Of a DNA stretch of 64,000 nt, positions 24,087-44,864 are shown in pieces. The notes under the pieces were generated by a model. It was given only the letters and a program-made list of their open reading frames with translations. It ran no database searches and was not told the DNA's origin. The stretch spans positions 806,001 through 870,000 of the forward strand of contig NZ_CP053833.1 of assembly GCF_013201935.1 (NCBI RefSeq), in the 5' to 3' direction. How positions within the stretch are numbered: the stretch's first letter is position 1; every line of letters starts with the position of its first letter. The position numbers and the translations under genes are program-made. This DNA comes from Arcobacter cloacae (GTDB taxonomy: Bacteria > Campylobacterota > Campylobacteria > Campylobacterales > Arcobacteraceae).

Positions 24087-24113
24087 AAATTCCAGTAAAT
24101 TTACTGGAATTTT
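24087..24113. terminator. Bidirectional terminator between the glycan cluster and the ankyrin gene
   Basis: AAAATTCCAGTAAA pairs with TTTACTGGAATTTT, a long near-perfect stem followed by a T-run on the plus strand and an A/T-rich flank on the minus strand. It separates the 869-residue protein gene from the convergent ankyrin gene and overlaps the latter's stop region. Confidence 0.8.
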
Positions 24114-24605
24114 TTTATTAAATAATCATTTTTTAAAAAAAGAGCTAAGTTCTTAGCACTATTCCCTAAAAAATCTTCATGTTCTAAATCAGCACCATTT
24201 TCAATAAGATATTTTATACTATTTTGTTTGTTATATAGTAAGGCATAAATTAGTGGAGTAGAGTTAATATCATCAATTTCATTTATGTTTAAACCACAAT
24301 TTTTTAGACATTTTAATATTTTTGTATTATCTAAATAAACAGCATAATTCATAGCAGAAAAATTAGGAGAAACTTCAGTTTTAATTCCTAATGCTATTAA
24401 CTCTTTTATAATTTCAAACTTATTTTTTGTAATTGCCCAATATAAGGCATTTTTACCATTGAAGTCTTTTGCATTTATATCTAAGATTTTTAATCTAAAC
24501 ATCTCTAATAACATATTCCATTTTTCACCATTTACTAGTGATGAAAAAATATTTGTAACTATTTGCTGATTTAAGTTTTTTATCTAAAAGATGGTTATTA
24601 GACAT
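24101..24605 (-). pseudogene. Ankyrin-repeat protein gene with a single-base frameshift near its 5' end
   Basis: The intact downstream frame (24101-24514) encodes 137 residues of ankyrin repeats, for example INAKDFNGKNALYWAITKNK and DINSTPLIYALLYNKQNS. A better start lies upstream at ATG 24605, six bases after AAAGGA. From there translation reads MSNNHLLDKK and then leaves the repeat frame at a run of six A (plus-strand T at 24576-24581), stopping at 24525. With one A fewer the frame continues as DKNLNQQIVTNIFSSLVNG straight into the repeats without a stop. The gene is therefore frameshifted, phase-variable, or carries a sequencing error. A Fur-like palindrome lies 19 bases upstream. It follows the small proteins of the metal cluster. 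Confidence 0.75.
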
Positions 24606-24623
24606 CTTAAGTCCTTTGTATTA

Positions 24624-24640
24624 ATGATAATCGTTATCAT
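24624..24640. promoter_or_regulatory. Fur-like operator upstream of the ankyrin gene
   Basis: ATGATAA-TCG-TTATCAT has perfect 7-bp arms around a 3-base centre and matches the Fur box core. It lies between the end of the 67-residue protein gene (24658) and the upstream ATG of the ankyrin gene (24605), so the ankyrin gene probably has its own iron-responsive promoter. Confidence 0.7.
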
Positions 24641-24657
24641 AATATAAAGAATCTTAA

Positions 24658-24861
24658 CTATTGTTTAAGTTGTTTTGATTTTTTTGGTTGATAAAGCATG
24701 TGATGCCAAAGTGCAAAACCACAAAAGGCAACACCTGCAACCACGTGAACTTTTTTTGCAACAGAATTTTTCATAAACATAGAGGTAACAACAGTTGCAC
24801 CAAGAGTTGCAGTCATTCCTATTTTTGCAGCTTCTTTTTGAAGCTCTAAATCAAATTTCAT
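24658..24861 (-). CDS. Small membrane protein of the P1B-ATPase cluster
   Basis: This 67-residue protein has a short charged N-terminus (MKFDLELQKEAAKIG) and two hydrophobic segments (MTATLGATVVTSMFM and VHVVAGVAFCGFALWHHMLY) that can form a helical hairpin. A basic tail (QPKKSKQLKQ) follows. No family is recognised with confidence. Its start overlaps the end of the 39-residue gene upstream, and GGAAACAAAGGG provides the ribosome site. It probably works at the membrane with the P-type ATPase encoded upstream. Confidence 0.7.
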   Translation of the reverse strand: MKFDLELQKEAAKIGMTATLGATVVTSMFMKNSVAKKVHVVAGVAFCGFALWHHMLYQPKKSKQLKQ

Positions 24862-24970
24862 CCCTTTGTTTCCTTTTTTTTCTTCTTTCCATTGTTTTTA
24901 CTGTTTTATTTACAGTTTTAACTGTTAAAATTGCTGTTAAAGCAGTAGCTAATGGTAATAAAATTGGCAT
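24851..24970 (-). CDS. Microprotein with one hydrophobic helix and a basic tail (39 residues)
   Basis: An ATG at 24970 with AAAGGATTTCTT directly upstream opens a 39-codon frame. It encodes a hydrophobic helix (MPILLPLATALTAILTV) and a strongly basic tail (METRRKK-like, ERRKKRKQRDE). The stop overlaps the start of the 67-residue gene by 11 bases, which suggests translational coupling. A Fur-like palindrome lies about 60 bases upstream (25028-25042). The good ribosome site, overlap and conserved-looking topology support a real gene. The function is unknown, possibly membrane organisation or membrane-surface binding. Confidence 0.65.
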   Translation of the reverse strand: MPILLPLATALTAILTVKTVNKTVKTMERRKKRKQRDEI

Positions 24971-25027
24971 AAGAAATCCTTTTAATAATAATTATCAGAA
25001 TTTTATCCATTTAATCTTAAATAAAAC

Positions 25028-25042
25028 TGATAACTATTATCA
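25028..25042. promoter_or_regulatory. Fur-like operator upstream of the microprotein genes
   Basis: TGATAA-CTA-TTATCA is a perfect inverted repeat at the 3' end of the P-type ATPase gene. A weaker second copy (AATAATAATTATCAG) lies about 40 bases closer to the microprotein start (24984-24998). Together they suggest an internal iron-responsive promoter for the 39-residue, 67-residue and ankyrin genes. Confidence 0.6.
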
Positions 25043-25045
25043 TAG

Positions 25046-27160
25046 TTATTTCTTAAGCTTTACACCCTTTATAGAATTTAATAATAAACCAATAGTTGTT
25101 CCATTATGTAAGACAGCAGTTGTTATTGGTGAAAATAGACCAAATGTAGCACCTGCCAAAATACAAGAGTTTATACCAACGGTTGCATTAAAGTTATTAT
25201 TTATTAAATTCATTGTTTTTAAAGCATACTCTTTTGCTTCAACAACAGCCATAATATCATCTTTTAAAAGACTTATATCAGCAGTTGCTTTTGCTATATC
25301 AGCACCTCTACTCATAGAGATTCCAACATGTGCAGAGATTAATGCAGGAGCATCATTTATTCCATCTCCTACAAAAGCCACTTTTTTACCTTCTTTCATA
25401 AGCTCTTTTACAATTTTTGCTTTATCTTGAGGTAAAAGTTCTGCTCTTACATCTGTTATTCCTAATTCAGAAGCTATCATTTGTGCTTTTTGTTTTGTAT
25501 CACCTGTTAACATAATGATGTTTTTAACACCTAATTTTTTTAGTTTTAAAATAGCCTCTTTTGAGTTATGTCTTAATTCATCGGCTAACTCAATTGTTCC
25601 TAAAAGTTTTTTATCATATCCCACATAAAGTAGAGTTTTGCCTTTTTTTATAGCATCATCAATTTTATCTTTAAAAGGAGTAAAATCTATTTTTTCATCA
25701 TCTTCTAAAAAGTGTCTGCTTCCTATAACTACACTTTTACCTTCAACTTCAGTTTTTACTCCATGGGCAACAATAAATTCAACTTCTTCATGGTGCATAT
25801 GAACAAAACCTCTTTGAACAGCAGCTTTTACAACAGCTTCTGCAACGGGATGAAAATAGTGTTCCTCTGTTGAAGCAGTAAGATTTAAAAGTTCATCTTC
25901 ACTCCAGTTATCATCATAAGACTCCACATTTACAACTTCCAGTTCACCAGCTGTTAAAGTTCCTGTTTTATCAAATACAAAAGTATCAGCATTGTTTAAA
26001 GCTTCGATAGATTTTGCACCTTTTATCATAATTCCATTATGACCAGCTTTTGAAATAGTTGATTTAAAAGCAACTGGAGTTGCAAGTTTTAAAGCACATG
26101 AGTAATCAGCTTGTAATATTGAAGCAACCCTTTCAAAATCTTTTGCAAATATATATGAAACACCTGCTAGTCCTAAAGTTACAGGAACTAATTTGTTTGC
26201 TAATTTATTTGCTTTTAATTGAACAGATGATTTTTCATTTAAAGAGTTTTCTATGTAGTGTTTTATTCTTTGCGTTGCTGTATTTGCTCCCACATGTTCA
26301 GCCCAAATTCTAAATCTTCCCTCTTCAACAATTGTTCCTGAAATAACCCTATCACCTCTATATTTGATTACTGGTTGTGCTTCTCCTGTCATTGAAACTT
26401 GATTTACACTTCCACTTCCATCTATAATATGCCCATCAATAGGAATAGTATTTCCAGCTCCAACAATTACAATATCTCCAACTTGTATATCCTCACTTTT
26501 TACCAAAACTTCAGTTATTTTGTTATCAACTTTTACTTCAATCCATGCTTCTTCAACATTTGGTTTTGCTAACTCTTTTAGTAAATCATCACTTTTATGA
26601 ACAGTTGTCTCTTCTATATATTCCCCAAGTTCAAGCATTGCATTTGTTGAGTTTGCAGCTAAATAATCTTTTCTATAAATAGAAATAGCAACAGCAGCAC
26701 TCTCTAAAACTTTAGAAGTAAGACCTTCTTTAAAAAGTTCTTTAGTTCCTTCTATTAAAAGTGGAGTTGAAGCAGCAGTTGTGATTCCAGCTTTTAATAA
26801 ATCATTTTGAACAAATCTTTCAGCAATTAATCCACTACTAGCTCTTATCATTCCACTAATTGAAGGCTCTTCATTTCCTACACATGATACACAAACAGCA
26901 GCTTCCTCTTCTTGACAAGATTTTAATAACTCTTCTATTGTAAGATTTGATAAAATCTCTTCAATTTCATGGCTAATATCATTTGTTATTTCAAAAACAA
27001 TACTATAAGCTTTTTTATTTATTCGTACACTTCTAACATCTTTTATTTTTTCAAGATAGTTTTGTAAAATATTTTCATCTATGAATTTCTCTTTCAATAA
27101 AAAATATTTATACCTTAATCGTAAAGGAGTTTCATGTACTTTTATAAATCTATTTTTCAT
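25046..27160 (-). CDS. P1B-type metal-transporting ATPase, FezB-like (P1B-6 candidate)
   Basis: This 704-residue ion pump has the P-type motifs TGE (258-260), DKTGT (D397 phosphorylated), HP (437-438), TGDT (552-555) and GDGIND (598-603). The membrane metal site normally reading CPC or SPC is Ser-Cys-Ala (DYSCALKLATP, about 352-362). The N-terminus has an HMA2-like domain opening with HETPLRLRYKY, which echoes HTPGRLRVRV of the neighbouring 104-residue protein, and a CVSC pair (90-93). The first membrane helices are only weakly hydrophobic. These traits suggest the P1B-6/FezB group of ferrosome loci, with iron as likely cargo; this is inference. The gene ends a packed minus-strand operon. Confidence 0.82.
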   Translation of the reverse strand: MKNRFIKVHETPLRLRYKYFLLKEKFIDENILQNYLEKIKDVRSVRINKKAYSIVFEITNDISHEIEEILSNLTIEELLKSCQEEEAAVCVSCVGNEEPSISGMIRASSGLIAERFVQNDLLKAGITTAASTPLLIEGTKELFKEGLTSKVLESAAVAISIYRKDYLAANSTNAMLELGEYIEETTVHKSDDLLKELAKPNVEEAWIEVKVDNKITEVLVKSEDIQVGDIVIVGAGNTIPIDGHIIDGSGSVNQVSMTGEAQPVIKYRGDRVISGTIVEEGRFRIWAEHVGANTATQRIKHYIENSLNEKSSVQLKANKLANKLVPVTLGLAGVSYIFAKDFERVASILQADYSCALKLATPVAFKSTISKAGHNGIMIKGAKSIEALNNADTFVFDKTGTLTAGELEVVNVESYDDNWSEDELLNLTASTEEHYFHPVAEAVVKAAVQRGFVHMHHEEVEFIVAHGVKTEVEGKSVVIGSRHFLEDDEKIDFTPFKDKIDDAIKKGKTLLYVGYDKKLLGTIELADELRHNSKEAILKLKKLGVKNIIMLTGDTKQKAQMIASELGITDVRAELLPQDKAKIVKELMKEGKKVAFVGDGINDAPALISAHVGISMSRGADIAKATADISLLKDDIMAVVEAKEYALKTMNLINNNFNATVGINSCILAGATFGLFSPITTAVLHNGTTIGLLLNSIKGVKLKK

Positions 27161-27163
27161 TTT

Positions 27164-27523
27164 TTATTCTTGATGATGGCTTTGCATTTGAGCTTTTGCA
27201 TCTTCATATCTCTCTTTTAATTCTTCAATACCAGCACTAAAAAGTTCACTTCCTTTTCCAAAAGCTTTAAAAATACCTTCTTGAGCATTTTTATTTGTTA
27301 AAAGATAAGTTACAGCTGCACCAATTAATGCACCTTTTACAAAATCTCCATTAAAAAAACCATTTTGAACAGGAGCATTTGTTTGCATAGGAGTTTGTAA
27401 AGGATTTATATATGGATTTTGATTGATATTAGCACCTGTTTGAAGAGTTTTTGCTCTGCTATTTTCAATATTCATATCATATTGATTTGTTTGCATATTT
27501 TGTTGCGGATTTTGATTATTCAT
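27164..27523 (-). CDS. Small Asn/Gln-rich membrane-associated protein
   Basis: The 119-residue protein has a low-complexity N-terminal half rich in Asn, Gln and Thr (MNNQNPQQNMQTNQYDMN and similar), one short Gly/Ala-rich hydrophobic helix (GDFVKGALIGAAVTYLL) and a helical charged tail ending in AQMQSHHQE. The helix-plus-charged-tail part recalls YtxH-like proteins. No enzyme motif is seen. Its start overlaps the preceding gene by eight bases and it ends three bases before the ATPase gene, so it is in the same operon. Confidence 0.75.
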   Translation of the reverse strand: MNNQNPQQNMQTNQYDMNIENSRAKTLQTGANINQNPYINPLQTPMQTNAPVQNGFFNGDFVKGALIGAAVTYLLTNKNAQEGIFKAFGKGSELFSAGIEELKERYEDAKAQMQSHHQE

Positions 27524-27878
27524 CTATATTCTCCTCTAAATGACAATTTTCATTTGTTAAATATTTTTGATCAAGTTTTTCTTCAATTACTTCAATCGCA
27601 TATATTCCCATCATTCCAATACTTGCAGCTGTTAGAGCTTTAAATAATCCACCTTTTTGACCTAAATAATTAGCTGTAGCAATAGCACTTCCTGTTGCAA
27701 TTGCACCTTGTGAAGTTCTTTTTATTGTATCTTTAATGGCATCTTTTTTTGTGATTTGTCTACTTTGAGCTTTTTTGTAATTAATCGCTCCACTTATTAC
27801 AGCACTTGCAATTGCACCACTTATAACGTGACCCAAAACATTTCTTGGTGCTCCTGTATCAATAACTATTTCTTTCAT
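27516..27878 (-). CDS. Small hydrophobic protein of the metal cluster
   Basis: The 120-residue protein contains Gly/Ala/Ser-rich hydrophobic stretches (GHVISGAIASAVISGAIN and GAIATGSAIATANYLG, then FKALTAASIGMMGIYAIEV) separated by a basic segment (KKAQSRQITKKDAIKDTIKR). The glycine-rich helices could pack closely in a membrane. I do not recognise a named family. It overlaps the upstream and downstream genes by four and eight bases, which supports co-translation with the other small membrane proteins and the ATPase. Confidence 0.75.
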   Translation of the reverse strand: MKEIVIDTGAPRNVLGHVISGAIASAVISGAINYKKAQSRQITKKDAIKDTIKRTSQGAIATGSAIATANYLGQKGGLFKALTAASIGMMGIYAIEVIEEKLDQKYLTNENCHLEENIDE

Positions 27879-28108
27879 TCATTTTCCTTTTTTTCTACTT
27901 CGCATTTTTCTTCTAAATTCTCTTTTTTACAACAGATATTTTCTTTTAGGTGTGAAACATTTTCTTTTGTTTTTTCTATAGTTTGATTTGCAAAATCTTT
28001 TGACTTATCAAATAGTTTTGAACTCTTTTGTTTTAGTAACTCTTTGTTTTTATATGCTATTACAGCACCTGCACCAACTGCTACTCCTAAAATAAATGGT
28101 AAAGCCAT
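27875..28108 (-). CDS. YtxH-like small membrane protein
   Basis: The 77-residue protein has an N-terminal Gly/Ala-rich helix (LPFILGVAVGAGAVIAYKNK) followed by a long charged, probably coiled-coil tail. The tail has a Cys pair (ENICCKKENLEEKCEVEKK). This is the general architecture of YtxH-type proteins, whose function is unknown. The cysteines might bind metal. It starts three bases after the ferritin-like gene and overlaps the next gene by four bases. Confidence 0.7.
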   Translation of the reverse strand: MALPFILGVAVGAGAVIAYKNKELLKQKSSKLFDKSKDFANQTIEKTKENVSHLKENICCKKENLEEKCEVEKKENE

Positions 28109-28111
28109 TTT

Positions 28112-28795
28112 CTACTCCTTTGATTCATTCTCTTGTTTTGCATTATAAGTGTTCAATAAAGCAATTATTGCACCACCTAAAACAGCACCGCTAACCATCG
28201 AAAGATTTAGTTTTGAAAAGATTTTTGATATAGAGTTTTCATCTATATTTCCACTCATAATATCATCTAAAATAACTTGATATTCACCTAGTTTTTCCAT
28301 GATATTTTCTTGAGTTATGTTATTTGTTGCACCATTATTATAATGAGCTATTACACAATTTCTAAAAGCAGGAAGGTGATTATTAAAAGATGCTGCTTGA
28401 AGTTTAAATAAAACATCTTTTACATCAGGTTCATTAGCATAACTTAATAAATTGTTATACATAGCAATATTATTAATCTCTCCTGCAACTCCCATTTCAC
28501 AACACTCAATAAGTGTGTTTGGTACTTCTATTTTAGAAGCCCAGTTATTTATAGGAACTTCCACATTATATTTTTGCATTAGTTGAATAAGTGCAGCATA
28601 ATGAACAGCTTCAGCCTCTTTTATATTTACAAAAGGTTGAACTAATCCAAATTTTTCAATTATTTTTGTGTAGGTTTCATAGGCTTTAAACTCATCATAA
28701 ACAGCAATTCTTAAAATCTGTGAGATTATAGGAATTTGGCTATTTTCATCTACTCTTGCACTTATTAATAGTGCTTCATCTATATTTATTTCCAA
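28112..28795 (-). CDS. Ferritin-like four-helix protein with C-terminal membrane helix
   Basis: The 227-residue protein has ferritin-like (DUF2202-type) helices with paired carboxylate/His motifs: YDEFKAYETY (about 34-43), KEAEAVHYAAL (59-69), GVAGEINNIAMY (about 103-114) and NNHLPAFRNCVIAH. These could form a di-iron site for iron binding or oxidation. A C-terminal segment (SMVSGAVLGGAIIALLN) is hydrophobic enough to anchor it to a membrane, which is not usual for ferritins. It is placed between the HMA2-like and small hydrophobic genes of the same operon, so a role in handling iron at a membrane compartment is inferred. Confidence 0.78.
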   Translation of the reverse strand: MEINIDEALLISARVDENSQIPIISQILRIAVYDEFKAYETYTKIIEKFGLVQPFVNIKEAEAVHYAALIQLMQKYNVEVPINNWASKIEVPNTLIECCEMGVAGEINNIAMYNNLLSYANEPDVKDVLFKLQAASFNNHLPAFRNCVIAHYNNGATNNITQENIMEKLGEYQVILDDIMSGNIDENSISKIFSKLNLSMVSGAVLGGAIIALLNTYNAKQENESKE

Positions 28796-29110
28796 CTAAA
28801 TAACCTCCTTTGCAAGTCTATTTATTAGTTGTGTTAACTCTTCAATATTTTGATTTTTTATTAAATCTTCCCAAAGTTTTGGACTAAATATTTTAGGGTC
28901 ATACATAATTGTAACAGAGGCAATAACTTTATTAATTTTAATACTAATTATTCCCTCTATTTTATTTGGTAAATTCTCTATATCTGCTATTGTTATATTT
29001 CCACCTGAATCTTTGATTTTAGGATTTACTCTAACTCTTAATCTTCCAGGTGTATGAGCAATAATAGAAAAAAAACTAGCAATTTTTATAATATCTTCTG
29101 TACTTATCAA
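28796..29110 (-). CDS. HMA2-like small protein
   Basis: The 104-residue protein resembles the HMA2 (heavy-metal-associated type 2) domain: an early hydrophobic stretch and AHTPGRLRVRVNPKI, then a ferredoxin-like beta-alpha-beta pattern (IEGIISIKINKVIASVTIMYDP). It lacks the CxxC of classical HMA domains. The HTPGRLR motif is echoed at the N-terminus of the P-type ATPase in the same operon (HETPLRLR), which suggests that both proteins bind the same partner or surface. It directly abuts the ferritin-like gene. Confidence 0.78.
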   Translation of the reverse strand: MISTEDIIKIASFFSIIAHTPGRLRVRVNPKIKDSGGNITIADIENLPNKIEGIISIKINKVIASVTIMYDPKIFSPKLWEDLIKNQNIEELTQLINRLAKEVI

Positions 29111-29173
29111 AATCTATCCTTTCAATATAAGCATTTTTTCCAATTGAAAATTAATTTAAACTTATTATAAACT

Positions 29174-29188
29174 AATAATTATTATCAG
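29174..29188. promoter_or_regulatory. Imperfect Fur-like site upstream of the HMA2-like gene
   Basis: TAATAATTATTATCAG contains the ATTATCA half of the Fur box and a degenerate left half. It lies in the gap between the Fur-family regulator gene and the HMA2-like gene and could give the metal cluster a second promoter. The match is weaker than those elsewhere in the window. Confidence 0.4.
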
Positions 29189-29192
29189 AAGA

Positions 29193-29642
29193 TTATTGAC
29201 ATTTTTCACAAAGTCCATAAATAGTCATAACATGTTCTTTAAGAATGAAATTGTGCTTTTTAGCCACTTTTTCTTGTTGTTCTTCTATTATTTCATCTGT
29301 AAATTCAAAAATAGCTCCACAGTTATTACAAATTAGATGGTCATGATGTTCTGCCAAACTTAATTCATATCGAATAGAACTTCCCCCAACATCCAACATA
29401 TTTACAAGTTTCATATCATGTAAAAATTTCATAGCTCTATAAACTGTGGCAATTCCTATTGATACATTATAAATTTCTCTTATCTTGTTTGATATCTCTT
29501 CAGCTGTTAAATGCTCTTTTGAAAAATATAATACTTTTAAAATATAATCTTTTTGTATAGAGTTTTTTAAACCAATTTTTGAAACATTTTTTTTAAAATT
29601 TTTTAAAAAAATATTAAATGCAATTTCTTGATTATTTTCCAT
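29193..29642 (-). CDS. Fur-family metalloregulator
   Basis: The 149-residue protein has the Fur-type winged helix (HLTAEEISNKIREIYNVSIG, then IATVYRAMKFL) and the dimer/metal domain with AEHHDHLICNNCG and the closing CEKC. The two CxxC pairs form the structural zinc site, and the His-rich segment is the regulatory metal site. The PerR-specific aspartate could not be judged. It is encoded directly ahead of the metal cluster and is the natural candidate for its repressor. It may instead be the global Fur that acts on the palindromes at the TonB, Feo and receptor genes. Confidence 0.9.
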   Translation of the reverse strand: MENNQEIAFNIFLKNFKKNVSKIGLKNSIQKDYILKVLYFSKEHLTAEEISNKIREIYNVSIGIATVYRAMKFLHDMKLVNMLDVGGSSIRYELSLAEHHDHLICNNCGAIFEFTDEIIEEQQEKVAKKHNFILKEHVMTIYGLCEKCQ

Positions 29643-29758
29643 TAGTTAAAACCTTTTATTGAAATGAAAATTATACAAATAGTTATTAATATAAGATAGA
29701 CTTTCCATAAATTTTTATGTATTTTTATATTTTTTTCATGTAAAGATGAGTTTTTCAT
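29642..29758 (-). CDS. Single-pass microprotein coupled to the Fur-family gene (38 residues)
   Basis: The ATG at 29758 follows AAAGGAAATTT and opens 38 codons: a basic N-terminus (MKNSSLHEKNIKIHKNLWK) and one hydrophobic helix (VYLILITICIIFISI). The stop TAA shares its last base with the regulator's ATG (TAATG). The good ribosome site and the one-base overlap argue for a translated leader gene of the operon. The function is unknown; it might be a membrane-associated partner, or its translation may simply couple to the regulator. Confidence 0.6.
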   Translation of the reverse strand: MKNSSLHEKNIKIHKNLWKVYLILITICIIFISIKGFN

Positions 29759-29885
29759 AAATTTCCTTTTATTAAAAAAGAAATACTATCATTAATACTC
29801 TTAAAGAATATTGATTTTAATTATCAGTTTAAATCTAAATTAAGTATTTTCTACATATAATTTAAAAAAATAAATAAGGATTTTT

Positions 29886-30278
29886 ATGCTAAATGTAACA
29901 CTTTTAAGTTCAGTTGCAAAAAGTGCATTTGTTGGAGCGGTTGCTACAAAGTTGGTTGATACTTTTGTTTCAACAAAAATAAATACAAAAATCGAACAAA
30001 ATAAATGGGCAAGAACAACAAAACTAGAGTTATTCTCAAAATTAATAGAAGATATATTATTACTTGATAGTGAAGATTTTAACACTCAAATAAAAGAGAT
30101 AAAAAGAAGTTGTGCAAAAATTATTTTACTTGTAAATGATAAGAAATTAGAGTTGAAAATCGAAGATTACTTAAATAGATTAAATAGATTTGTGCAAAAC
30201 GATAGGGTTGAAAGAAATGGTTTATCTTTACTGAATAAAGATATGATTTCTTATTTAAAAATGAATATAAGACTTTAA
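29886..30278 (+). CDS. Hypothetical protein with N-terminal hydrophobic segment
   Basis: The 130-residue product starts at ATG 29886 after ATAAGGATTTTT. The first 30 residues are Ala/Val-rich and mildly hydrophobic (LLSSVAKSAFVGAVATKLVDTFV). The rest is helical and charged (KLELFSKLIEDILLL, IEDYLNRLNRF). No family or catalytic motif is recognised. It is a plus-strand gene between the two minus-strand iron operons and ends at a strong hairpin that also serves the convergent gene. Confidence 0.6.
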   Translation: MLNVTLLSSVAKSAFVGAVATKLVDTFVSTKINTKIEQNKWARTTKLELFSKLIEDILLLDSEDFNTQIKEIKRSCAKIILLVNDKKLELKIEDYLNRLNRFVQNDRVERNGLSLLNKDMISYLKMNIRL

Positions 30279-30666: not shown

Positions 30667-33129
30667 TTAATTTTTAAAATTTTTTGCTCCTCCTTTCCAA
30701 TTAATAGATTTATTTGGATAAAAAGCTAAAATCAAAGTTATAGCTAAAACTGTAAAATAGAAATAACTCATAGCTTCTAATCCACTCCATGAATAGATAT
30801 TTCCAACTGTAAATACAAAAGAAGCGATAAAAACACCCAAACTTACTGGGAAAAATATTGCAAATAACATCCATTTAAAGCTATTTGTTTGCATTTTTAC
30901 AACAATCATAGTTGCAATACAAGGAGGTGTTAAAAGCATAAAAATAATAATCGCAGTTGCATGAAGTGGAGTATAACCACTATTTTGTGCCATTGCTTCT
31001 TCAGCTCTTAAATTATCTGCTTTGTTGTTTTCATATAAACTTCCCAAAGTAGCAACAGCACTCTCTCGTGCAGCAAATGAACTTAAAAATGCCACATTTA
31101 TTTTCCAATCAAACCCTGCATATTTTGTAATAGGTTCAATTGATTTTCCCATCATTCCAAGAAGAGAATTTTCTATTTTTTCATTTTTCATCTCTCTTAA
31201 AATATTTTTTCTATCTGTTGATAGTTTTCTAAGGGCAACATTTATTTTTTTTGCATCATTATCACTCAAAGGTCTTATAAATTTATAAAGAGTTTGATTC
31301 TCTTTTTCATATTTTTCATCTACACTTGATGATGAATTTACCATTTTAGCAGCTCTGTAATCATCATAAAAATTTAAAGCCAAAGAGATTTTTTCTTTAT
31401 CATTTAAATATTCATAATAAGTTGTATTTTTTACTTTTTCATCAAATTCTACTAAAGCTTTTTGGGCTAAAAAATCATATTTTATTTTTGATTCATCACT
31501 TAATCCTGGAAATTGAAGCATCGCAAAAAGTACAATAGCAACAGCAAGTACTATAGTTACAACTTTTTTGATATAAACCCAAACCCTTTGAGATGCTCTT
31601 ATTATTACACCTTTAAAAGTTGGTAAATGATAAGGTGGAAGTTCCATTAAAAAAGGAGCAGTTTCTCTATTTTTTAAAATAGTGCTTGTTAAAATTTTTG
31701 CAACAATTAAAGCACAAAAAACTGTAACTGTTGAGATAAAAAACATCATTATTGCCATATCTGGTTTAAAAAAAGCACCTAAAAGTAGGGTATAAAAAGG
31801 AACTTTTGCCAAACAATTCATATAAGGAACAGTTAAAACTGTAGCCATTCTAGCTCTATCATCTGCTATTCCTTTTGTAGCCATAACTCCTGGAACTGCA
31901 CAACCTCCAACCATAGCGCCACCTAAAACTAAAGGAAGAGTAGATTGTCCATGAAGTCCAAATTTTCTAAAAACCCTATCTAAAATAAATGCCATTCTTG
32001 GCATATATCCAACATCTTCCATAATAGCAATCAAAGCAAATAGAATAAAAAAGATAGGAATATAATTAAGTAAGGCATTTGCACTATTTACCATCCAAAT
32101 AGTAAAATCAGTTATCATAGGAACATCTGTAAAATTTGCTTTTGGCATCACATCAATAACAAAATTTTTAAAACTAGCAAGTATTGGCCAAGTATAATCT
32201 GTAAGTTTGTATCCATAAACAATAGAAATCTGATAAACTAAAAACATAATTGCAAATAAAATAGGTAAGGCTAAAAATCTATTTAAGATTATTTTATCAG
32301 CTTTATCTGTTAGAGTTTTTTTATTTGGATTTTTATGAACAACGGTTTTTTCTTGTATAAGTTCAGCACTATCATATCTAAAAGTTGCAAGAAAAGTGAT
32401 GATATTTTTATTATAAGTTGTTTGAAAAAGTTCATTTTGTTTTTGTAAAATCTCTTTTATATCAGAAATCTCTTTTGATAAAAAATCTATTATTGTTTCA
32501 TCACCCTCTAGTGCTTTTATTGCTAACCATCTTTTTGATAGATTACTTGTTGAAGTTTTGATTTCATTTTCAACATAAGAGATATAAGATTCTAACTCTT
32601 CATAATTTATTTGAAACTCTTCAATACTATTTTCATTTTCATAAAGAGTTGTGATTGCTTTCATAATCTCTTCTTTCCCAAGCCCTTTTGCTCCACTTGC
32701 TTCTATAACAGGGCATCCAAGCATTGATGAGATTTTTTTACTATCTATATTTATATCTCTTCTTTTAGCCACATCCATCATATTTAAAACTAAAACAACA
32801 GGAATTCCTATTTCTAAAAGTTGAAAAGTTAAATATAAATTTCTTTTTAGATTTGAAGCATCAACTACATTTATTATTACATCAGGTTTTTCATTTAAGA
32901 TATACTCTTTTGCAACCCTTTCTTCAAGGGAATATGAACTAAAAGAGTAAGTTCCAGGTAAATCTACCATCTCTATTTTATAATCATCAAATTTGAAAAA
33001 ACCAGTTTTTTTATCGACTGTTACTCCTGGATAATTTGCTATATGTTGCTCAATTCCACTAACCAAATTAAAAATTGTTGATTTACCACAGTTTGGCTGT
33101 CCTGCTAATACTGCTTTTATTTTTCTCAT
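30667..33129 (-). CDS. feoB: Ferrous iron transporter FeoB
   Basis: FeoB is the large inner-membrane GTPase that imports Fe2+. The 820-residue protein has the N-terminal G-domain motifs GQPNCGKST (G1), DLPGTYS (G3) and NMMD (G4). The helical guanine-dissociation region, and then two Gate repeats with the conserved membrane cysteines in VGGCAVPGV and PPCIATM, follow. A charged insertion of about 120 residues (roughly 575-690) lies between the membrane halves, which is common in campylobacterotal FeoB. It overlaps feoA by four bases. Co-transcription with an upstream ABC transporter is unusual. Confidence 0.96.
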   Translation of the reverse strand: MRKIKAVLAGQPNCGKSTIFNLVSGIEQHIANYPGVTVDKKTGFFKFDDYKIEMVDLPGTYSFSSYSLEERVAKEYILNEKPDVIINVVDASNLKRNLYLTFQLLEIGIPVVLVLNMMDVAKRRDINIDSKKISSMLGCPVIEASGAKGLGKEEIMKAITTLYENENSIEEFQINYEELESYISYVENEIKTSTSNLSKRWLAIKALEGDETIIDFLSKEISDIKEILQKQNELFQTTYNKNIITFLATFRYDSAELIQEKTVVHKNPNKKTLTDKADKIILNRFLALPILFAIMFLVYQISIVYGYKLTDYTWPILASFKNFVIDVMPKANFTDVPMITDFTIWMVNSANALLNYIPIFFILFALIAIMEDVGYMPRMAFILDRVFRKFGLHGQSTLPLVLGGAMVGGCAVPGVMATKGIADDRARMATVLTVPYMNCLAKVPFYTLLLGAFFKPDMAIMMFFISTVTVFCALIVAKILTSTILKNRETAPFLMELPPYHLPTFKGVIIRASQRVWVYIKKVVTIVLAVAIVLFAMLQFPGLSDESKIKYDFLAQKALVEFDEKVKNTTYYEYLNDKEKISLALNFYDDYRAAKMVNSSSSVDEKYEKENQTLYKFIRPLSDNDAKKINVALRKLSTDRKNILREMKNEKIENSLLGMMGKSIEPITKYAGFDWKINVAFLSSFAARESAVATLGSLYENNKADNLRAEEAMAQNSGYTPLHATAIIIFMLLTPPCIATMIVVKMQTNSFKWMLFAIFFPVSLGVFIASFVFTVGNIYSWSGLEAMSYFYFTVLAITLILAFYPNKSINWKGGAKNFKN

Positions 33130-35788: not shown

Positions 35789-35807
35789 ATTGATAACAAT
35801 TATCAAT
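35789..35807. promoter_or_regulatory. Fur-like operator between the Feo operon and hemP
   Basis: ATTGATAA-CAA-TTATCAAT has perfect 8-bp arms, the best Fur-box match in the window. It lies between the divergent Feo operon (start 35734) and hemP/receptor genes, so it probably represses both when iron is plentiful. Confidence 0.8.
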
Positions 35808-36157: not shown

Positions 36158-38476
36158 GTGAAAAAATATATCGTAAGTAAAAAACATAAATCGACAAACT
36201 CTTTTAGTGCATCTGTTGTAACAGCAACACTGTTAATCTCTACACCAATGGTGTTAAGCGCTGACTCTACAGTTTTAAAAGATGTGGATGTTGTTGAAAA
36301 AAAAGAGATAGATTATACTTCAAATTATAAAGTAGATAAATCTTCATCATCAAAAGTTGTTCAAGATTTACTTGATACTCCTCAAACAATCTCTGTTGTT
36401 ACAAATAAAGTAATGAAAGAACAACAAGCTACAACTTTAGTTGATGCTTTAAAAAATACTCCTGGTGTTACTATGTTTTTGGGTGAAGGAGGAAATTCTA
36501 ATCAAAAAGGAAATCTTTCTTTAAGAGGATTTGACGTTTCAAGTAGTATTTACAAAGATGGAGTAAGAGAACTAAGTGGAGCAACAAGAGATACTTTTAA
36601 TACTGAAGCTATTGAAGTTACAAAAGGAACAGTTGGTGCTGACAATGGAAGAAGTGTGGCTTCTGGATATATAAATCAAGTTAGTAAAACTGCAAAAAAT
36701 AAAGATAACACAGAATTAGGAGTTTCTTATAATACAGCAAATAATACAAGATTAACAGCTGATTTAAATAAGGCTTTATCTGAATCTTCAGGTGTTAGAT
36801 TAAATGTTATGAAACAAGATGGAGATGTACCAGGAAGAGATGGTGTTGAAGTAGATAGATTAGGAATAGCAGCATCTCTTGCTTTTGGAATTGGAAAAGA
36901 TACGAGAACTACGATTAATTACGAAAGATATGAACAAGATGATGTTCCAGATGGAGGAGTTTCTACTGTTGGATTAAATGGATATTACAATCAAACATTA
37001 GCAAATGCTGGTGTGAATGTAAAAAAAGTTGATCCAAAAAACTTCTATGGAAGCAATCAAGATTTTGAAAAAGTTACATCTGATATTTTCACAGCTAAAT
37101 TTGAACATGATTTTTCAGATAAACTAACTTTAACTAATACTACAAGATATGGAAAATCAAATCAAGAGATGTTAATAACAGCGCCAGGGGCATTGGTTAC
37201 AGCTACAACTGGAAACAATAGTAATCCAAATTTTAATGTAAATAATCCAGCAACATGGACAGTTACAAGAAGTGGACAAACTAAATGGCAAGAAAATGAA
37301 ATTTTAACAAATCATATAAATATAAGTACAGTTGCTCATACAGGTTCAATCTCTCATAATATCAGTACAGGTGCTGATGTTTCAATAGAAAATCAAACTA
37401 CTAAAACAATAACAAGAGGTGGGACTGCAAATCAAGCAAATCTTTATAATCCAAACTCTAGTAATGCTTTAAGTAATTTAACACTAAGTGAAAATGGAGC
37501 ACAAACTTTTGGAGAGACTAAAACAGTTGGAGTTTATGCTTTTGATTCTATTAATTTAACTGATAAATTTATAGTAACAGGAGGAGCAAGACTTGATAAA
37601 TATAATACTCAAACAGATATTACATCTATTGCAACGGCAACAAATCCAGGTGGGGGAGTTCCTGTTGGAACTAAAATTGCAACTAATTTAGAAGATTCAG
37701 GAACTTTAAAAAGTTATAAAGTAGGGGCTGTTTATAAACCTCTTGAAAATGGAAGTATTTATATCTCTTATGCGGATTCTCAATTACCTCCAGGTGGTGC
37801 TAATTTTGCTTTAAGTTCAAGTGAGACAAGTGCTTCTAATTCAGCAATGGAGCCTCAAAAATCTGTAACTACTGAATTTGGGACAAAATGGGATTTATTA
37901 GATAATAGATTAAGTTTATCAACAGCTATTTATAAAACAGAAGTTACAAATGAAGTTATGACTGAATCAGATGGTTCAACTTCTCAAAATGGTGAAAAAG
38001 AAGTTAAAGGAATAGAGTTAGGTTTAGTTGGTGAAATAACTGATAAATGGAATATTAGTACAGGAATTGCAAAAAGTAAAACAGAAGTTTTACGTGCAAC
38101 AAATACAAATCCTGCAAATACTCAAGAAGGTGCAGCTTTAAGATTCTCTCCTGAATTAACAGCAACTTTATGGACAACATATAAAGTAGTTCCAAGTGTT
38201 ACTTTAGGTGCTGGTGCTAGATATGTAGGAAAACAATACAGATCAACAAGTTCTTCTCAACAAAATGATGGTTCAACTACAAATATGCCAGAGATTGAAT
38301 CTTACGTGGTTTATGATGCAATGGCATCATATCAACAAAACAAGAATCTTTCTTATCAGCTGAATTTATATAATTTAACAGATGAAGAGTATGTTGCAAG
38401 TATGAATAATAATGGACATAGATACACTCCAGGTGCATCAAGAAGTGCTTTATTATCTTTAGCATATAAATTTTAA
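36158..38476 (+). CDS. TonB-dependent siderophore receptor (Fiu/PiuA-like)
   Basis: The 772-residue outer-membrane receptor starts at GTG 36158, with TTGGAGGAAAATATTAA upstream. A long signal peptide ends near VLSADS. A TonB-box-like stretch (TVLKDVDVV) precedes the plug domain (TPQTISVVTNKVMKEQQATT, NLSLRGFDVSSSIYKDGVRE) and the 22-strand barrel ends in YKF, with the terminal Phe needed for assembly. Together with the PiuC-like gene that follows it recalls monomeric-catecholate receptors. TonB at 10 kb would energise it. It is presumably iron-repressed through the palindrome at 35789. Confidence 0.9.
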   Translation: MKKYIVSKKHKSTNSFSASVVTATLLISTPMVLSADSTVLKDVDVVEKKEIDYTSNYKVDKSSSSKVVQDLLDTPQTISVVTNKVMKEQQATTLVDALKNTPGVTMFLGEGGNSNQKGNLSLRGFDVSSSIYKDGVRELSGATRDTFNTEAIEVTKGTVGADNGRSVASGYINQVSKTAKNKDNTELGVSYNTANNTRLTADLNKALSESSGVRLNVMKQDGDVPGRDGVEVDRLGIAASLAFGIGKDTRTTINYERYEQDDVPDGGVSTVGLNGYYNQTLANAGVNVKKVDPKNFYGSNQDFEKVTSDIFTAKFEHDFSDKLTLTNTTRYGKSNQEMLITAPGALVTATTGNNSNPNFNVNNPATWTVTRSGQTKWQENEILTNHINISTVAHTGSISHNISTGADVSIENQTTKTITRGGTANQANLYNPNSSNALSNLTLSENGAQTFGETKTVGVYAFDSINLTDKFIVTGGARLDKYNTQTDITSIATATNPGGGVPVGTKIATNLEDSGTLKSYKVGAVYKPLENGSIYISYADSQLPPGGANFALSSSETSASNSAMEPQKSVTTEFGTKWDLLDNRLSLSTAIYKTEVTNEVMTESDGSTSQNGEKEVKGIELGLVGEITDKWNISTGIAKSKTEVLRATNTNPANTQEGAALRFSPELTATLWTTYKVVPSVTLGAGARYVGKQYRSTSSSQQNDGSTTNMPEIESYVVYDAMASYQQNKNLSYQLNLYNLTDEEYVASMNNNGHRYTPGASRSALLSLAYKF

Positions 38477-38563: not shown

Positions 38564-39244
38564 ATGATATTACATATTCCAAATGTTCTTTCAAAAGAAC
38601 AACTAATAGAGTGTAGAAAATTACTTGATAATGCACAATGGATTGATGGAAAATTAACAGCAGGAAGTCAAGCTGTTAATGTAAAAAGTAATTTACAACT
38701 TGCTGAGAATAGTGAAACTTTAAGATATTTAAGAACTATAATAATCAATTCTTTAAATACAAACCCTTTGTTTATAAGTTCAGCAATACCTAATCATATT
38801 ATTTCACCTTTTGTAAATAGATATGAAAATGGTGGAGCTTATGGCAATCATGTGGATAACTCTATTTTATATGATGCTACAGTTAAGAAAAATTTTAGAA
38901 CAGATATTTCATGTTCTTTATTTTTTACAAATCCTGAAGAGTATGAAGGTGGTGAGATGGTTATTGAAGATACTTTTGGAACTCATGAAGTAAAACTTCC
39001 AGCAGGGGATATGATACTTTATCCTTCAACTAGTTTACATAGGGTTGAGCCTGTTACTAAAGGTGTTAGAATGGTCAGTTTTATGTGGATTCAAAGTATG
39101 ATTAGAAGTGCATGGAAAAGAAGTATGCTTTTTGAACTTGATAATACAATTCAAACTATAAGAGGTAAATATGGGGAGACACAAGAGGCTGTAAACTTAT
39201 CAATTCATTATCATAAACTTATTCAAGAGTGGGCAGAACTTTAA
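38564..39244 (+). CDS. piuC: PKHD-type Fe(II)/2-oxoglutarate dioxygenase (PiuC/YbiX-like)
   Basis: The 226-residue cytoplasmic oxygenase begins MILHIPNVLSKEQL. It has the iron-binding HxD motif in GNHVDNS (about residues 97-99), the ETYEGGE-like NPEEYEGGEMV block and the distal His and 2-oxoglutarate Arg in SLHRVEPVTKGVRM. PiuC genes habitually accompany siderophore receptors and are iron-repressed; the substrate is unknown. It follows the receptor gene and its stop overlaps the next start by one base. Confidence 0.88.
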   Translation: MILHIPNVLSKEQLIECRKLLDNAQWIDGKLTAGSQAVNVKSNLQLAENSETLRYLRTIIINSLNTNPLFISSAIPNHIISPFVNRYENGGAYGNHVDNSILYDATVKKNFRTDISCSLFFTNPEEYEGGEMVIEDTFGTHEVKLPAGDMILYPSTSLHRVEPVTKGVRMVSFMWIQSMIRSAWKRSMLFELDNTIQTIRGKYGETQEAVNLSIHYHKLIQEWAEL

Positions 39245-40523: not shown

Positions 40524-42758
40524 ATGAAATTAAGAATTGCAAGTTCTGTTGCAGCACTATTAGTTGCGCAAGCATCAGTTTTAGCTGATGATACTACAAA
40601 ATTAGAAGAGATTACAGTTACAACTGCTGCTGGTTATGAGCAAAAATTAGTTGACGCACCTGCATCTATCTCTGTTATAACTCAAGAAGATTTACAAAAA
40701 AAACCATATGCAAATTTACTAGATGCTGTTAAAGACATAGAAGGTGTTGATATTGGTGAAAGTACTGATAAATCAGGACAAGGAACAGTTAGTATGAGAG
40801 GTATGGGTGCTGATTATACACTTGTTTTAATTGATGGTAAAAGACAAAATAATAATGGTGATATCTATCCAAATGATTTTGGTGGATTACAATTTGCAAA
40901 TATTCCACCTATTTCTATGATAGAAAGAATAGAAGTTGTAAGAGGACCTATGTCTACACTTTATGGTGCTGATGCTATGGGTGGAGTTATAAATATTATC
41001 ACTAAAAAAATATCAAAAGAGTGGACAGGTTCAATTAGTCATAGTAGAACTTTTCAAACGGATAGTTCATGGGGAGATAAAGATACTACAGATATTTCTA
41101 TCATGGGACCACTTATTGAAAACAAGCTAGGTCTTAGTTTAAGAGGAAGTTTTTATGATAATGAAAAATCGAATCCTGAATGGGCGAAAGCAACTTATAA
41201 TGGAGTAGATGTTAGTAAAAATAATAATAGTTTTGGTGCAAATGGTAAAACTATGGATAATCAGAACTGGACTTTTGGTACAGGATTGACATTTACTCCA
41301 AACGATGCTCATACTATAAAAGCTGATTTTGATATAGCAAAACAAAGATATGATAATACAGCAGGTAGTGTAGGAACAGTTGATAGTTATCAAACTATTT
41401 ACACAAATCAAAGAGTTGGATATGCTCCTATTCAAAGAATGCAAAGAGAGCAATACTCTTTATCTTGGGAAGCTGCTTGGGATGTTGGGAAAAGTACAGT
41501 TGGAGTTCATCATATTGAATCAGAAAATCTAGGAAGAAGTTTACCTTTAAGTGCAGAAGAGAGATTGTATATTAAAAACAATAAACCAGGATGGGGAAAT
41601 TTAGCAGGTGCAATGAATGATCCATATTTTGCAGCTTTAATGCCAAGACCAAAAAGAACTTTAGAATCAACAAATACGACTTATAGTGCAAAATATGAAG
41701 TACCTTTAAATACTCATTTTTTAGTTGTTGGTACTGAATATTTAGATGCTCAGATGAAAGATGGTGTTTTTGGTATGAGTGAGGGGAAATCTAATGGTAA
41801 AAAAGAGTATGGTCAATATTCTGTTTTTGCAGAAGATAGTTGGAATATTATAGACCCATTAACTCTTACTTTTGGTGGAAGATATGACAAACATGAAGAT
41901 TTTGGTAGTCATGTAAGTCCTAGAGTATATGCAACTTATACAATAAATGATAACTGGACGGTAAAAGGTGGAGTTGCAACAGGATATAAGACTCCTAAAA
42001 CATCTGATTTACAAGAAGGGATTATGGGGTTTGGTGCTCAAGGAACATCTCCATTTATTGGAAATCCTGATTTAAAACCTGAAGAGAGTTTAAGTAAAGA
42101 AATTGCAGTTTATTATGAGCACCCAAATAAACATAATTTTAATGTAACTTTATTCCAAAATGATTTTAAAGATAAGATTGAAAGTGCAGACGTTACAGCA
42201 TCAGCTGGTTCACAATGGGAAGATGTAAGTTCAAGTTACGGAACTCTTAGACAAAAACAAAATGTAGGAAAAGCAGAGATTTTAGGGTTAGAAGTTGCTG
42301 GGAAATATTTCATTTTAGACAATTTATCATTTAAAGCAAATTGGACATATATGGATTCTGAAATTGAATCAGATAATCCATCAACAAATGGGAAACCTTT
42401 AAGAAGTAGTCCAAAACATATGTATAATGCTACTTTAGATTATCAAGCAACAGCAAAGCTTAATACATATTTACAATATTCAGGAGAAGTTGATAGATTT
42501 AAAGAAAGATATCAAACATCATCAAATAGTGGAATTTACAAAGATTTATATTATAAAGACTACTCAATTTGGAATTTAGGAACTTCTTATAAAGTTGATA
42601 AAAACTTAACATTCAATGGAAGAGTTAATAATTTATTTGATAAAGATTTTATGGAATATAGTGCTGTTGATAGGGTTGGAACTACAACATACTATGAAGA
42701 TTATAGTAATATTAGTGCAGGTAGAAACTTCTGGTTAAGTGCTAACTATACTTTCTAA
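40524..42758 (+). CDS. TonB-dependent receptor (CfrA/FepA/CirA-like)
   Basis: The 744-residue outer-membrane receptor has a signal peptide (MKLRIASSVAALLVAQASVLA), a TonB box-like LEEITVTTA, the plug domain (APASISVITQEDLQ, VSMRGMGADYTLVLIDGKRQ, ERIEVVRGPMSTLYGADAMG) and the barrel with the conserved NPDLKPEESLSKE and a terminal Phe (ANYTF). The plug is close to colicin/ferric-enterobactin-type receptors such as Campylobacter CfrA, so a catechol siderophore is the best guess. It ends at a strong hairpin and has its own leader region. Confidence 0.9.
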   Translation: MKLRIASSVAALLVAQASVLADDTTKLEEITVTTAAGYEQKLVDAPASISVITQEDLQKKPYANLLDAVKDIEGVDIGESTDKSGQGTVSMRGMGADYTLVLIDGKRQNNNGDIYPNDFGGLQFANIPPISMIERIEVVRGPMSTLYGADAMGGVINIITKKISKEWTGSISHSRTFQTDSSWGDKDTTDISIMGPLIENKLGLSLRGSFYDNEKSNPEWAKATYNGVDVSKNNNSFGANGKTMDNQNWTFGTGLTFTPNDAHTIKADFDIAKQRYDNTAGSVGTVDSYQTIYTNQRVGYAPIQRMQREQYSLSWEAAWDVGKSTVGVHHIESENLGRSLPLSAEERLYIKNNKPGWGNLAGAMNDPYFAALMPRPKRTLESTNTTYSAKYEVPLNTHFLVVGTEYLDAQMKDGVFGMSEGKSNGKKEYGQYSVFAEDSWNIIDPLTLTFGGRYDKHEDFGSHVSPRVYATYTINDNWTVKGGVATGYKTPKTSDLQEGIMGFGAQGTSPFIGNPDLKPEESLSKEIAVYYEHPNKHNFNVTLFQNDFKDKIESADVTASAGSQWEDVSSSYGTLRQKQNVGKAEILGLEVAGKYFILDNLSFKANWTYMDSEIESDNPSTNGKPLRSSPKHMYNATLDYQATAKLNTYLQYSGEVDRFKERYQTSSNSGIYKDLYYKDYSIWNLGTSYKVDKNLTFNGRVNNLFDKDFMEYSAVDRVGTTTYYEDYSNISAGRNFWLSANYTF

Positions 42759-43580: not shown

Positions 43581-44864
43581 ATGCATAAAACAATATGGTT
43601 TAAAATACACTGGTTTTTAGGAATTACAGCTGGAATAATCCTTTTAATAGTTGGAGCTACTGGAGCTATTTTATCTTTTGAAAAAGAGATAATGAAAGCT
43701 ATAAATAGTGATACTTATTATGTAAAAGTTATAGAGGGACAAGATAAATTAACTACAAAAGAGTTATTAGAAAAATTTCAAGCTTCAAGTCCTAAAGCAA
43801 AAATAAATAGCATATCTTTCTCTTTAGACGCCACTTCATCAACAGTTATAAATATAGCAGGTGAAGGAGAAAATGCAAGAAGAGGAATAAGTAAATATGT
43901 AAATCCATATACAGCTGAAGTTTTACCAGATTTAGTTGGAAAAGATTTTTTTGGATTTATTTTAAGACTTCATAGATGGTTGGCGTTTCCTCAAGAAATA
44001 AGAGAAGTTGGAAAACAAACAGTTGCAATAAGTACAATTTCTTTAATAGTTTTAATAATTAGTGCACTTGTGATTTATTGGGGAAGAATAAAACATGCCT
44101 TTTTCAAAAGTTTTACTTTTAAATTTAAACATCATGGAAGAGCATTTTTATCAACAATGCATAGTGCAGTTGGTATGTGGGTGATTCCACTTTATTTATT
44201 AGCTTCATTAACTGGACTTTTTTGGTCTTATGAGTGGTACAACAATGCACTTTATAAAATAGCAGGAGTTGAAAAACCTCAAAGAATGCAACAACCCCAA
44301 CAGCCACAAGCTCAAAAAGAACCTAAATCTGAACAACAAAAAGCACCAGAACAAAGAGAAAGAAAACCAGAAGGTGAAAAAGCTGAAGGACAAAGAGAAA
44401 GAAAACCAGAAGGACAAAGGGGTGAAAGAGGACAAGGTCAAAGACCTCAAGGTGAATCTTCATCATCTAAATTTGCAGATATTCAAAAAGCTGTAGAGAT
44501 GTTTAATATTTTTGTTCAAAGAGATTATTCAAATGTAACTCTTCGATTCCCACAAAAAGGAACAGTTTATAGCTTTAGTTATTTAGATACAGATCCTGCT
44601 CATTATAGAGCTAGAAATACTCTTGAAGTGGATATTAATTCATGGCAATTATTAAAACATGAAAGATATAATGATTTACCATTAAATGAAAGATTGATGA
44701 AAAGTATTTTACCTTTACACACAGGTGAATATTTTGGACTTATTGGTCAGACTTTAATGTTTATTGCATCTGCTTTAATGGCATTGTTTACAATAACAGG
44801 TTTTATGCTTTATATAAATAGACATAAAAAGAAAAAATCAAAAATAGAACAACAAAAAGTATAA
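43581..44864 (+). CDS. PepSY-associated membrane protein (PiuB-like, iron-regulated)
   Basis: The 427-residue protein has the PepSY-TM architecture: a first helix (FLGITAGIILLIVGATGAIL), the periplasmic PepSY domain, the membrane motif GFILRLHRWLAFP and two further helix pairs ending in LMALFTITGFMLYI. Histidines in the HRW and LHTGEYFG blocks suggest haem b binding, as in ferric-siderophore reductases. A repetitive low-complexity insert of about 55 residues, rich in Gln, Glu, Arg, Pro and Lys (repeated QRERKPEG), lies in the second periplasmic loop. It probably reduces ferric chelates for the receptors. Confidence 0.87.
   Translation: MHKTIWFKIHWFLGITAGIILLIVGATGAILSFEKEIMKAINSDTYYVKVIEGQDKLTTKELLEKFQASSPKAKINSISFSLDATSSTVINIAGEGENARRGISKYVNPYTAEVLPDLVGKDFFGFILRLHRWLAFPQEIREVGKQTVAISTISLIVLIISALVIYWGRIKHAFFKSFTFKFKHHGRAFLSTMHSAVGMWVIPLYLLASLTGLFWSYEWYNNALYKIAGVEKPQRMQQPQQPQAQKEPKSEQQKAPEQRERKPEGEKAEGQRERKPEGQRGERGQGQRPQGESSSSKFADIQKAVEMFNIFVQRDYSNVTLRFPQKGTVYSFSYLDTDPAHYRARNTLEVDINSWQLLKHERYNDLPLNERLMKSILPLHTGEYFGLIGQTLMFIASALMALFTITGFMLYINRHKKKKSKIEQQKV

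Follow-up and report, generated by a model that had tools for sequence, protein, structure and literature searches.

A probable ferrosome operon carrying a tail-anchored ferritin-like protein in Arcobacter cloacae

Accounts of bacterial iron storage usually treat protein cages and membrane organelles separately. What, then, would be built by a gene cluster in which a ferritin-like protein is encoded between an HMA2-like protein and a P1B-type ATPase, together with a series of small proteins and a Fur-family regulator? This question is raised by a run of minus-strand genes at positions 24101-29758 of a 64,000-nucleotide stretch of Arcobacter cloacae (phylum Campylobacterota; contig NZ_CP053833.1, positions 806,001 to 870,000, assembly GCF_013201935.1), which is the window analysed here and whose numbering is used throughout. 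The first-pass annotation had proposed a ferrosome-like cluster building or loading an iron compartment, and all the genes it listed are present on the minus strand in the list of open reading frames (ORFs) and their translations. We consider it very probable, from comparison of the genes, that the locus belongs to the six-gene type of ferrosome (fez) operon, in a form that includes a tail-anchored ferritin-like protein. Directly supported are its gene content, its conserved order, the clade of its ATPase, the predicted ferritin fold and the Fur-box motifs.

The comparison with known fez clusters identifies putative counterparts of all six Rhodopseudomonas fez genes in the window. The reference cluster is that of Rhodopseudomonas sp. 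BR0M22 (locus L096), a congener of CGA009 and not CGA009 itself, whose six genes encode an HMA2-hairpin fusion, an HMA2 protein, a one-transmembrane (one-TM) protein, a MamC-like protein, a YtxH-like protein and FezB. The order hma2 (28796-29110), tm1 (27875-28108), MamC-like gene (27516-27878), ytxH (27164-27523) and fezB (25046-27160) in the window is the same as in this cluster, which corresponds to RPA2333-2338 in CGA009. The suggestion that the small proteins would align with fez counterparts by profile hidden Markov model (HMM) held for three of them, since models built from the phylum of the window matched hma2 (5e-8), the MamC-like gene (1e-4) and ytxH (2e-9) in BR0M22, along with fezB (2e-238), but it did not hold for fezC, which is matched by alignment, or for tm1, which is matched by position only. 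To the Rhodopseudomonas set the window adds the tail-anchored ferritin-like gene, a 39-aa gene (s39), a Fur paralogue, a microprotein and an ankyrin gene. Smaller fez gene sets are reportedly found in Desulfovibrio magneticus (fezABC) and Clostridioides difficile (fezXAB); both share the fez-type ATPase with the window, a comparison made by gene content and not by sequence.

Taken singly, the small proteins are recognised with varying ease. The HMA2-like protein, which starts at a TTG codon, lacks cysteine and carries an HTPGRLRVRV motif, matches PF19991 at 3.2e-6, with a score of 27.6 bits, below the cut-off of 30. The small protein tm1, with a single N-terminal TM segment, was defined by its ORF, conservation and hydropathy, and its own HMM matches 24 of 80 named loci, these being the best 80 of 428 confirmed matches to an Azospirillum-led query and hence biased to Proteobacteria. 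The YtxH-like protein, with its N-rich N-terminus, matches PF12732 at only 0.057, while its own HMM finds it in all 80. The description of the small proteins as membrane proteins is upheld for FezC, which has one hydrophobic stretch in a 19-residue hydropathy scan, and is weak for the YtxH-like protein because the scan shows no stretch above 1.2, although even in the P1B ATPase the same scan picks out only two strongly hydrophobic regions.

The ATPase (TIGR01525, 5e-148) provides the clearest link to ferrosomes. Its intramembrane sequence DYSCALKLATP contains the Ser-Cys-Ala (SCA) site that had been read from the translation, and its N-terminus is HMA2-like with an H..P.R.R motif. In a 28-row tree, in which several rows were flagged for long branches or skewed composition, it falls in an 18-row clade (support 100/100) with 7 other rows of its own phylum and 10 proteobacterial rows, from Rhodopseudomonas, Azospirillum, Magnetospirillum, Aromatoleum, Azotobacter, Ectothiorhodospira, Aeromonas, Vibrio, Cereibacter and a Burkholderiales metagenome-assembled genome. 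The SCA site is found in 17 of the 18 rows, the exception being Cereibacter with DYACP. Outside the clade lie the four other P-type pumps of the A. cloacae genome, three with a CPC site and one (L003) that is not P1B by its site, together with pumps bearing SPA or other sites. A copper, zinc or cobalt pump, the identity named beforehand as telling against a ferrosome, is ruled out by the intramembrane site and by this tree, where the protein groups with fez-linked ATPases. An SCA motif goes with the P1B-6 label. Its best named matches are encoded on Arcobacter plasmids (77-81%). A CVSC motif at residues 90-93, in the linker that follows the HMA2-like domain, is also present in the ATPase of locus L055 and absent from more distant aligned rows. 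Separately, in plasmid ATPases of Gloeothece, Deinococcus and Priestia (L146, L147 and L148) the SCA site is replaced by DFGTGI, DFASGI or DFICGI; two of the three adjoin annotated HMA2 genes, and they possibly represent separate, uncharacterised groups.

The main difference in architecture concerns FezC. In Rhodopseudomonas it is the HMA2-hairpin fusion encoded upstream, whereas in the window it is a stand-alone protein of 67 aa encoded downstream of fezB (24658-24861). Because the window protein aligns with the second half of the BR0M22 fusion, FezC of this phylum seems, from the alignment, to have been reduced to that half and moved downstream, behind its own Fur boxes in Arcobacter-type genomes. 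Five residues (K13, G15, H39, G43 and H53), including two histidines, are invariant in 21 chosen rows comprising 8 stand-alone and 13 fused proteins, and DUF4405 matches 11 of these rows at E 0.05 or better. FezC of D. magneticus has likewise been described as DUF4405-like, and that of Desulfurispirillum indicum, shown to bind haem b, as a DUF4405-like protein believed to function as a dimer (PMC10979944, in excerpt).

The MamC-like protein bears on the relation of ferrosomes to magnetosomes. Like MamC (Mms13), it has two TM helices with a charged loop between them, and in MamC the joining loop is predicted to contact the crystal (PMC3905215, in excerpt). The MamC model NF038051 matches the window protein at 2.2e-5, scoring 24.7 bits where the curated cut-off is 100, and matches 10 of 25 family members (best 8.8e-9) and none of ten reversed family members picked regardless of matching. 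An hhalign comparison with one MamC gave an E-value of 1.8e-4 and a probability of 49%, as against 0.3% for a control pair. Run over 15 named genomes, the model picked out a single clear MamC, that of Magnetospirillum sp. SS-4, and missed every fez MamC-like gene in the set, so recognition by this single model is weak in Proteobacteria. Calling the window protein MamC outright was rejected for its score; since all scores lie well below the family cut-off, it may be regarded as distantly akin to MamC at most.

Conservation of the cluster was assessed in 22 loci of the phylum, namely 20 of 29 further genome loci and two near-identical named Arcobacter plasmids. The order hma2, ferritin-like gene, tm1, MamC-like gene, ytxH and fezB is kept in 21 of them, which argues that the grouping is more than chance; the exception (L057) begins within the operon at a contig end. 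After fezB, fezC follows in 20 of the 22. In a survey of 298 genomes drawn evenly from the phylum, the ATPase was detected in 102 (at 1e-120) and a ferritin-like match in 104 (at 1e-5). The two genes lie on the same contig and within 2.1 kb of each other in 95 of the 102 fezB genomes, and nine genomes have a weak ferritin-like match (5.5e-6 to 1.1e-8) and no ATPase at the threshold used. Among the same 80 named loci, ytxH is present in 80, fezB in 79 (one being cut by a contig end), hma2 in 70, the MamC-like gene in 59, tm1 in 24 and fezC in 4, the fezC and tm1 models having been built on the phylum of the window and finding few proteobacterial copies. The ferritin-like gene occurs in 27 of the 70 named loci with hma2 (26 at 1e-10, the match in L088 being weak), always between hma2 and ytxH, in Aromatoleum, Azoarcus, Thauera, Azotobacter, Rhodoferax and others; none of the Azospirillum, Magnetospirillum and Rhodopseudomonas loci inspected had it. 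The idea that the ferritin-like protein and a dedicated Fur mark a distinct variant must be corrected in both parts: the ferritin-like gene is not peculiar to this cluster, and the Fur paralogue is confined to part of the group, a Fur-family gene lying just upstream of hma2 in 11 of the 22 phylum loci. The Fur paralogue, the microprotein and the ankyrin gene are lineage-limited. The two Arcobacter plasmids (L036, CP129951.1, and L037, CP134847.1), of about 133 kb and from chicken meat, carry the same operon including the ferritin-like gene, with the ATPase frame of L037 broken into two ORFs; because a tyrosine recombinase gene sits a few kb from both copies, the operon may travel between genomes.

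The most unusual component of the cluster is the ferritin-like protein itself (28112-28795, TTG start). It matches DUF2202 (PF09968) at 2.1e-5, above the cut-off, and 14 of the 23 members of its family also give a match with an E-value no higher than 0.01. Its AlphaFold2 model (mean pLDDT 80) shows helices at residues 23-49, 55-75, 95-117 and 123-153, with ten-residue means of confidence of 91-98 over residues 11-150 except for 85 at residues 81-90, and a C-terminal helix at 198-225, of low confidence, that spans a hydrophobic stretch at 192-219. The N-terminus is not hydrophobic. The best Foldseek match, MJ0754 (3.9e-5, only two matches reaching E 0.001), is also the best sequence match among solved structures (1.7e-6), and VIA-align places bacterioferritins, Dps-like proteins, MJ0754 and nigerythrin at Z 16.8-17.9 over 127-142 residues among the rows shown, above the warning level of about Z 13 for helical bundles. 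The model predicts a ferritin-type four-helix bundle with a C-terminal anchor. This anchor is an addition relative to MJ0754, a DUF2202 protein whose matched chain is the bundle only and for which we know of no organelle link. Five potential metal ligands (E35, E62, H65, E106 and H140) are present in the window protein, and because 17 of 23 rows keep all five, metal binding in most rows is plausible from sequence. A relative of the protein was sought in viral contigs and none was found. The A. cloacae genome also encodes two ordinary ferritins. An encapsulin with a ferritin cargo was considered and set aside, no shell protein being matched in the 10 operon proteins scanned, a search that covered neither the microprotein nor the rest of the genome.

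This protein may be an iron loader, a protector or a scaffold. It might, as a tentative possibility, be a rubrerythrin-type peroxide scavenger that shields the ferrosome from oxygen and does not load iron. Campylobacterota are mostly microaerophiles, rubrerythrin is one of the weakly matching families (8 of 23 rows at E 0.01), and the fold comparison picks up nigerythrin with a Z of 17.0; however, the closest match in both sequence and Foldseek searches is the uncharacterised MJ0754, and no rubredoxin domain was matched in the 10 operon proteins scanned. Somewhat less likely is a structural scaffold whose metal site has decayed. In place of the helix-D glutamate of a classical di-iron site, expected three residues before H140, the window protein has Phe137; none of the 23 rows has a glutamate there, and in six of them (L059, L076, L081, L087, L120 and L130) at least one of the five remaining ligands is lost too, but the joint retention of these ligands in the remaining 17 rows speaks against general decay.

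Regulation of the cluster is suggested by its Fur boxes. The intergene gaps, counted from 29758 downwards with negative values for overlaps, are -1, 82, 0, 3, -4, -8, 3, 75, -11 and 143 bp. The first-pass annotation had described a single run with overlaps or tiny gaps; the gene list and the overlaps were borne out, but the run is not unbroken, because the gaps of 82, 75 and 143 bp carry Fur boxes, and we therefore infer four units: micro-fur, hma2 to fezB, s39-fezC and ank. Boxes lie upstream of micro-fur (29812-29826, 2 mismatches), of hma2 (29173-29187, 1 mismatch), of s39-fezC (25028-25042 and 24983-24997, 1 mismatch each) and of ank (24625-24639, 1 mismatch). Between 24101 and 29900, five boxes with at most 2 mismatches were found, all before genes, as against 0.175 expected from 200 shuffles, and four with at most 1 mismatch as against 0.005. 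When three mismatches are allowed over the whole window there is little excess (33 as against 24.5 expected, with 8 of 100 shuffles reaching 33). Boxes with at most 2 mismatches also precede s39 in 14 of 16 relatives (0.16 expected) and ank in 8 of 8 (0.05 expected). These motifs suggest that the cluster is expressed under iron scarcity. In C. difficile, fezA and fezB are repressed by Fur (PMC12574912, in excerpt).

The regulator encoded in the cluster (29193-29642, PF01475 8.9e-34) is one of four FUR-family genes in the genome. In a 22-row tree, in which long branches were flagged, the operon copies form one group (support 90/89) apart from L141, the best-scoring Fur of the A. cloacae genome, while the Fur gene of locus L055, which lies downstream of fezC, groups with L141 (93/86). 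The operon Fur is likely, on this tree, a paralogue of the canonical Fur of the genome.

Improbable, finally, is a Fur-controlled Fe(II) exporter in which FezB would expel iron across the plain cytoplasmic membrane, with the small proteins as its subunits and no organelle at all: the organelle is here a prediction from genes, and a P1B-5 ATPase, Nia, has been tied to nickel and iron transport and possibly to iron detoxification (PMC4932525, in excerpt), but the window contains counterparts of six genes reported to make ferrosomes, among them small proteins superfluous to a plain pump, and export makes little sense in the iron scarcity under which the Fur boxes suggest expression.

Several observations weigh against the assignment to a ferrosome operon, or against parts of it. 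The organelle is here predicted from genes, and the match to the published Fez proteins of D. magneticus, Shewanella putrefaciens, R. palustris CGA009 and C. difficile runs via a Rhodopseudomonas congener. In that congener the fezC and tm1 models find no match at E 0.01, and the tm1 counterpart is assigned by its position and N-terminal TM segment; the window FezC reaches 0.0077 with DUF4405, under the Pfam cut-off. The Arg motif of the ATPase is not diagnostic alone because two ATPases outside the clade, from Gloeothece and Priestia, match the same pattern. With up to 2 mismatches allowed, a Fur box precedes hma2 in 7 of 20 relatives (0.25 expected) and is found in 1 of 60 proteobacterial loci scanned. 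Seven of the 102 fezB genomes (G286, G265, G197, G092, G276, G176 and G049) have no linked ferritin-like gene. The absent helix-D glutamate and the six rows with further ligand losses, cited above in favour of a scaffold, count here as well.

The remaining genes of the cluster and its surroundings can be described more briefly. The microprotein (29642-29758) is a 38-aa ORF with one TM segment by hydropathy; it overlaps fur by one base and is present in 6 of 22 phylum loci. The s39 gene (24851-24970), first of the fezC unit, encodes a small membrane protein of 39 aa and is found in 16 of 22. The ankyrin-repeat protein (24101-24514, PF12796 4.8e-15), which has its own Fur box, is encoded in 8 of 22; its ORF begins at an internal ATG, and near a run of A the 5' part is out of frame with that of L041, a near-identical relative (window 24101-24660). 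Upstream of the microprotein, on the plus strand, a 130-aa protein (29886-30278) with no Pfam match occurs in the same 8 of 25 relative loci as ank. The cluster adjoins an iron region with FeoB (30667-33129, FeoB_N 8.7e-65), two TonB-dependent receptors (36158-38476 and 40524-42758), a PKHD-type hydroxylase (38564-39244) and a PepSY_TM protein (43581-44864). Fur-box-like sites lie in this region at 35791, 40324 and 42824. FeoB was considered as a cluster member and left out of the unit because a FeoB-like gene was found in just 1 of 25 relative loci (L055, 35% identity), many of which span few kb upstream.

How might such an operon work? We infer from the genes the formation of an organelle, iron as its cargo, the topology of the proteins, the role of the ferritin-like protein and each step that follows. 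When iron is scarce, Fur would leave the boxes before each unit and the genes would be expressed. The tm1, MamC-like and YtxH-like proteins may then shape and coat a vesicle of the inner membrane, into which FezB would pump Fe(II) from the cytosol at the expense of ATP, helped by the HMA2 and Arg-rich domains. FezC, as a haem-binding dimer, could pass electrons across the membrane and so set the redox state of the iron. Since the hydrophobic anchor of the ferritin-like protein is at its C-terminus and its N-terminus is not hydrophobic, its bundle should face the cytosol, and on the organelle surface beside the pump it could capture or oxidise Fe(II), buffer it or destroy peroxide. A more specific proposal, which we regard as speculative, is that the ferrosome of Campylobacterota and of many Beta- and Gammaproteobacteria is a hybrid store, in which tail-anchored ferritin-like subunits on the cytosolic face would take up or oxidise Fe(II) and pass it to FezB, while the MamC-like protein would meet the mineral inside.

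In the portions of the literature reached by our searches, no link was found between fez genes or ferrosomes and a ferritin-like protein, or between MamC and ferrosomes, the founding ferrosome papers (Nature 2022, 2023) and their gene maps lying outside those searches. No title on ferrosomes in the phylum was returned with Campylobacter or Helicobacter, and nothing was found on DUF2202 as a ferritin-like family, although a report may exist in either case.

From its near-constant company with fez genes in the phylum, the ferritin-like protein could be a functional component of the ferrosome that has escaped notice, and the seven genomes in which it is not linked to fezB offer natural comparisons for its contribution. 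Ferrosomes are predicted in about one-third of the sampled genomes of the phylum (102 of 298), and the distant relative of MamC is a lead on parts common to ferrosomes and magnetosomes. The linkage to fezB in 95 of 102 genomes suggests a meeting point of cage and organelle storage. If true, the hybrid store would unite the ferritin and organelle routes in one machine, and a protein that touches the mineral in both would link ferrosomes with magnetosomes.

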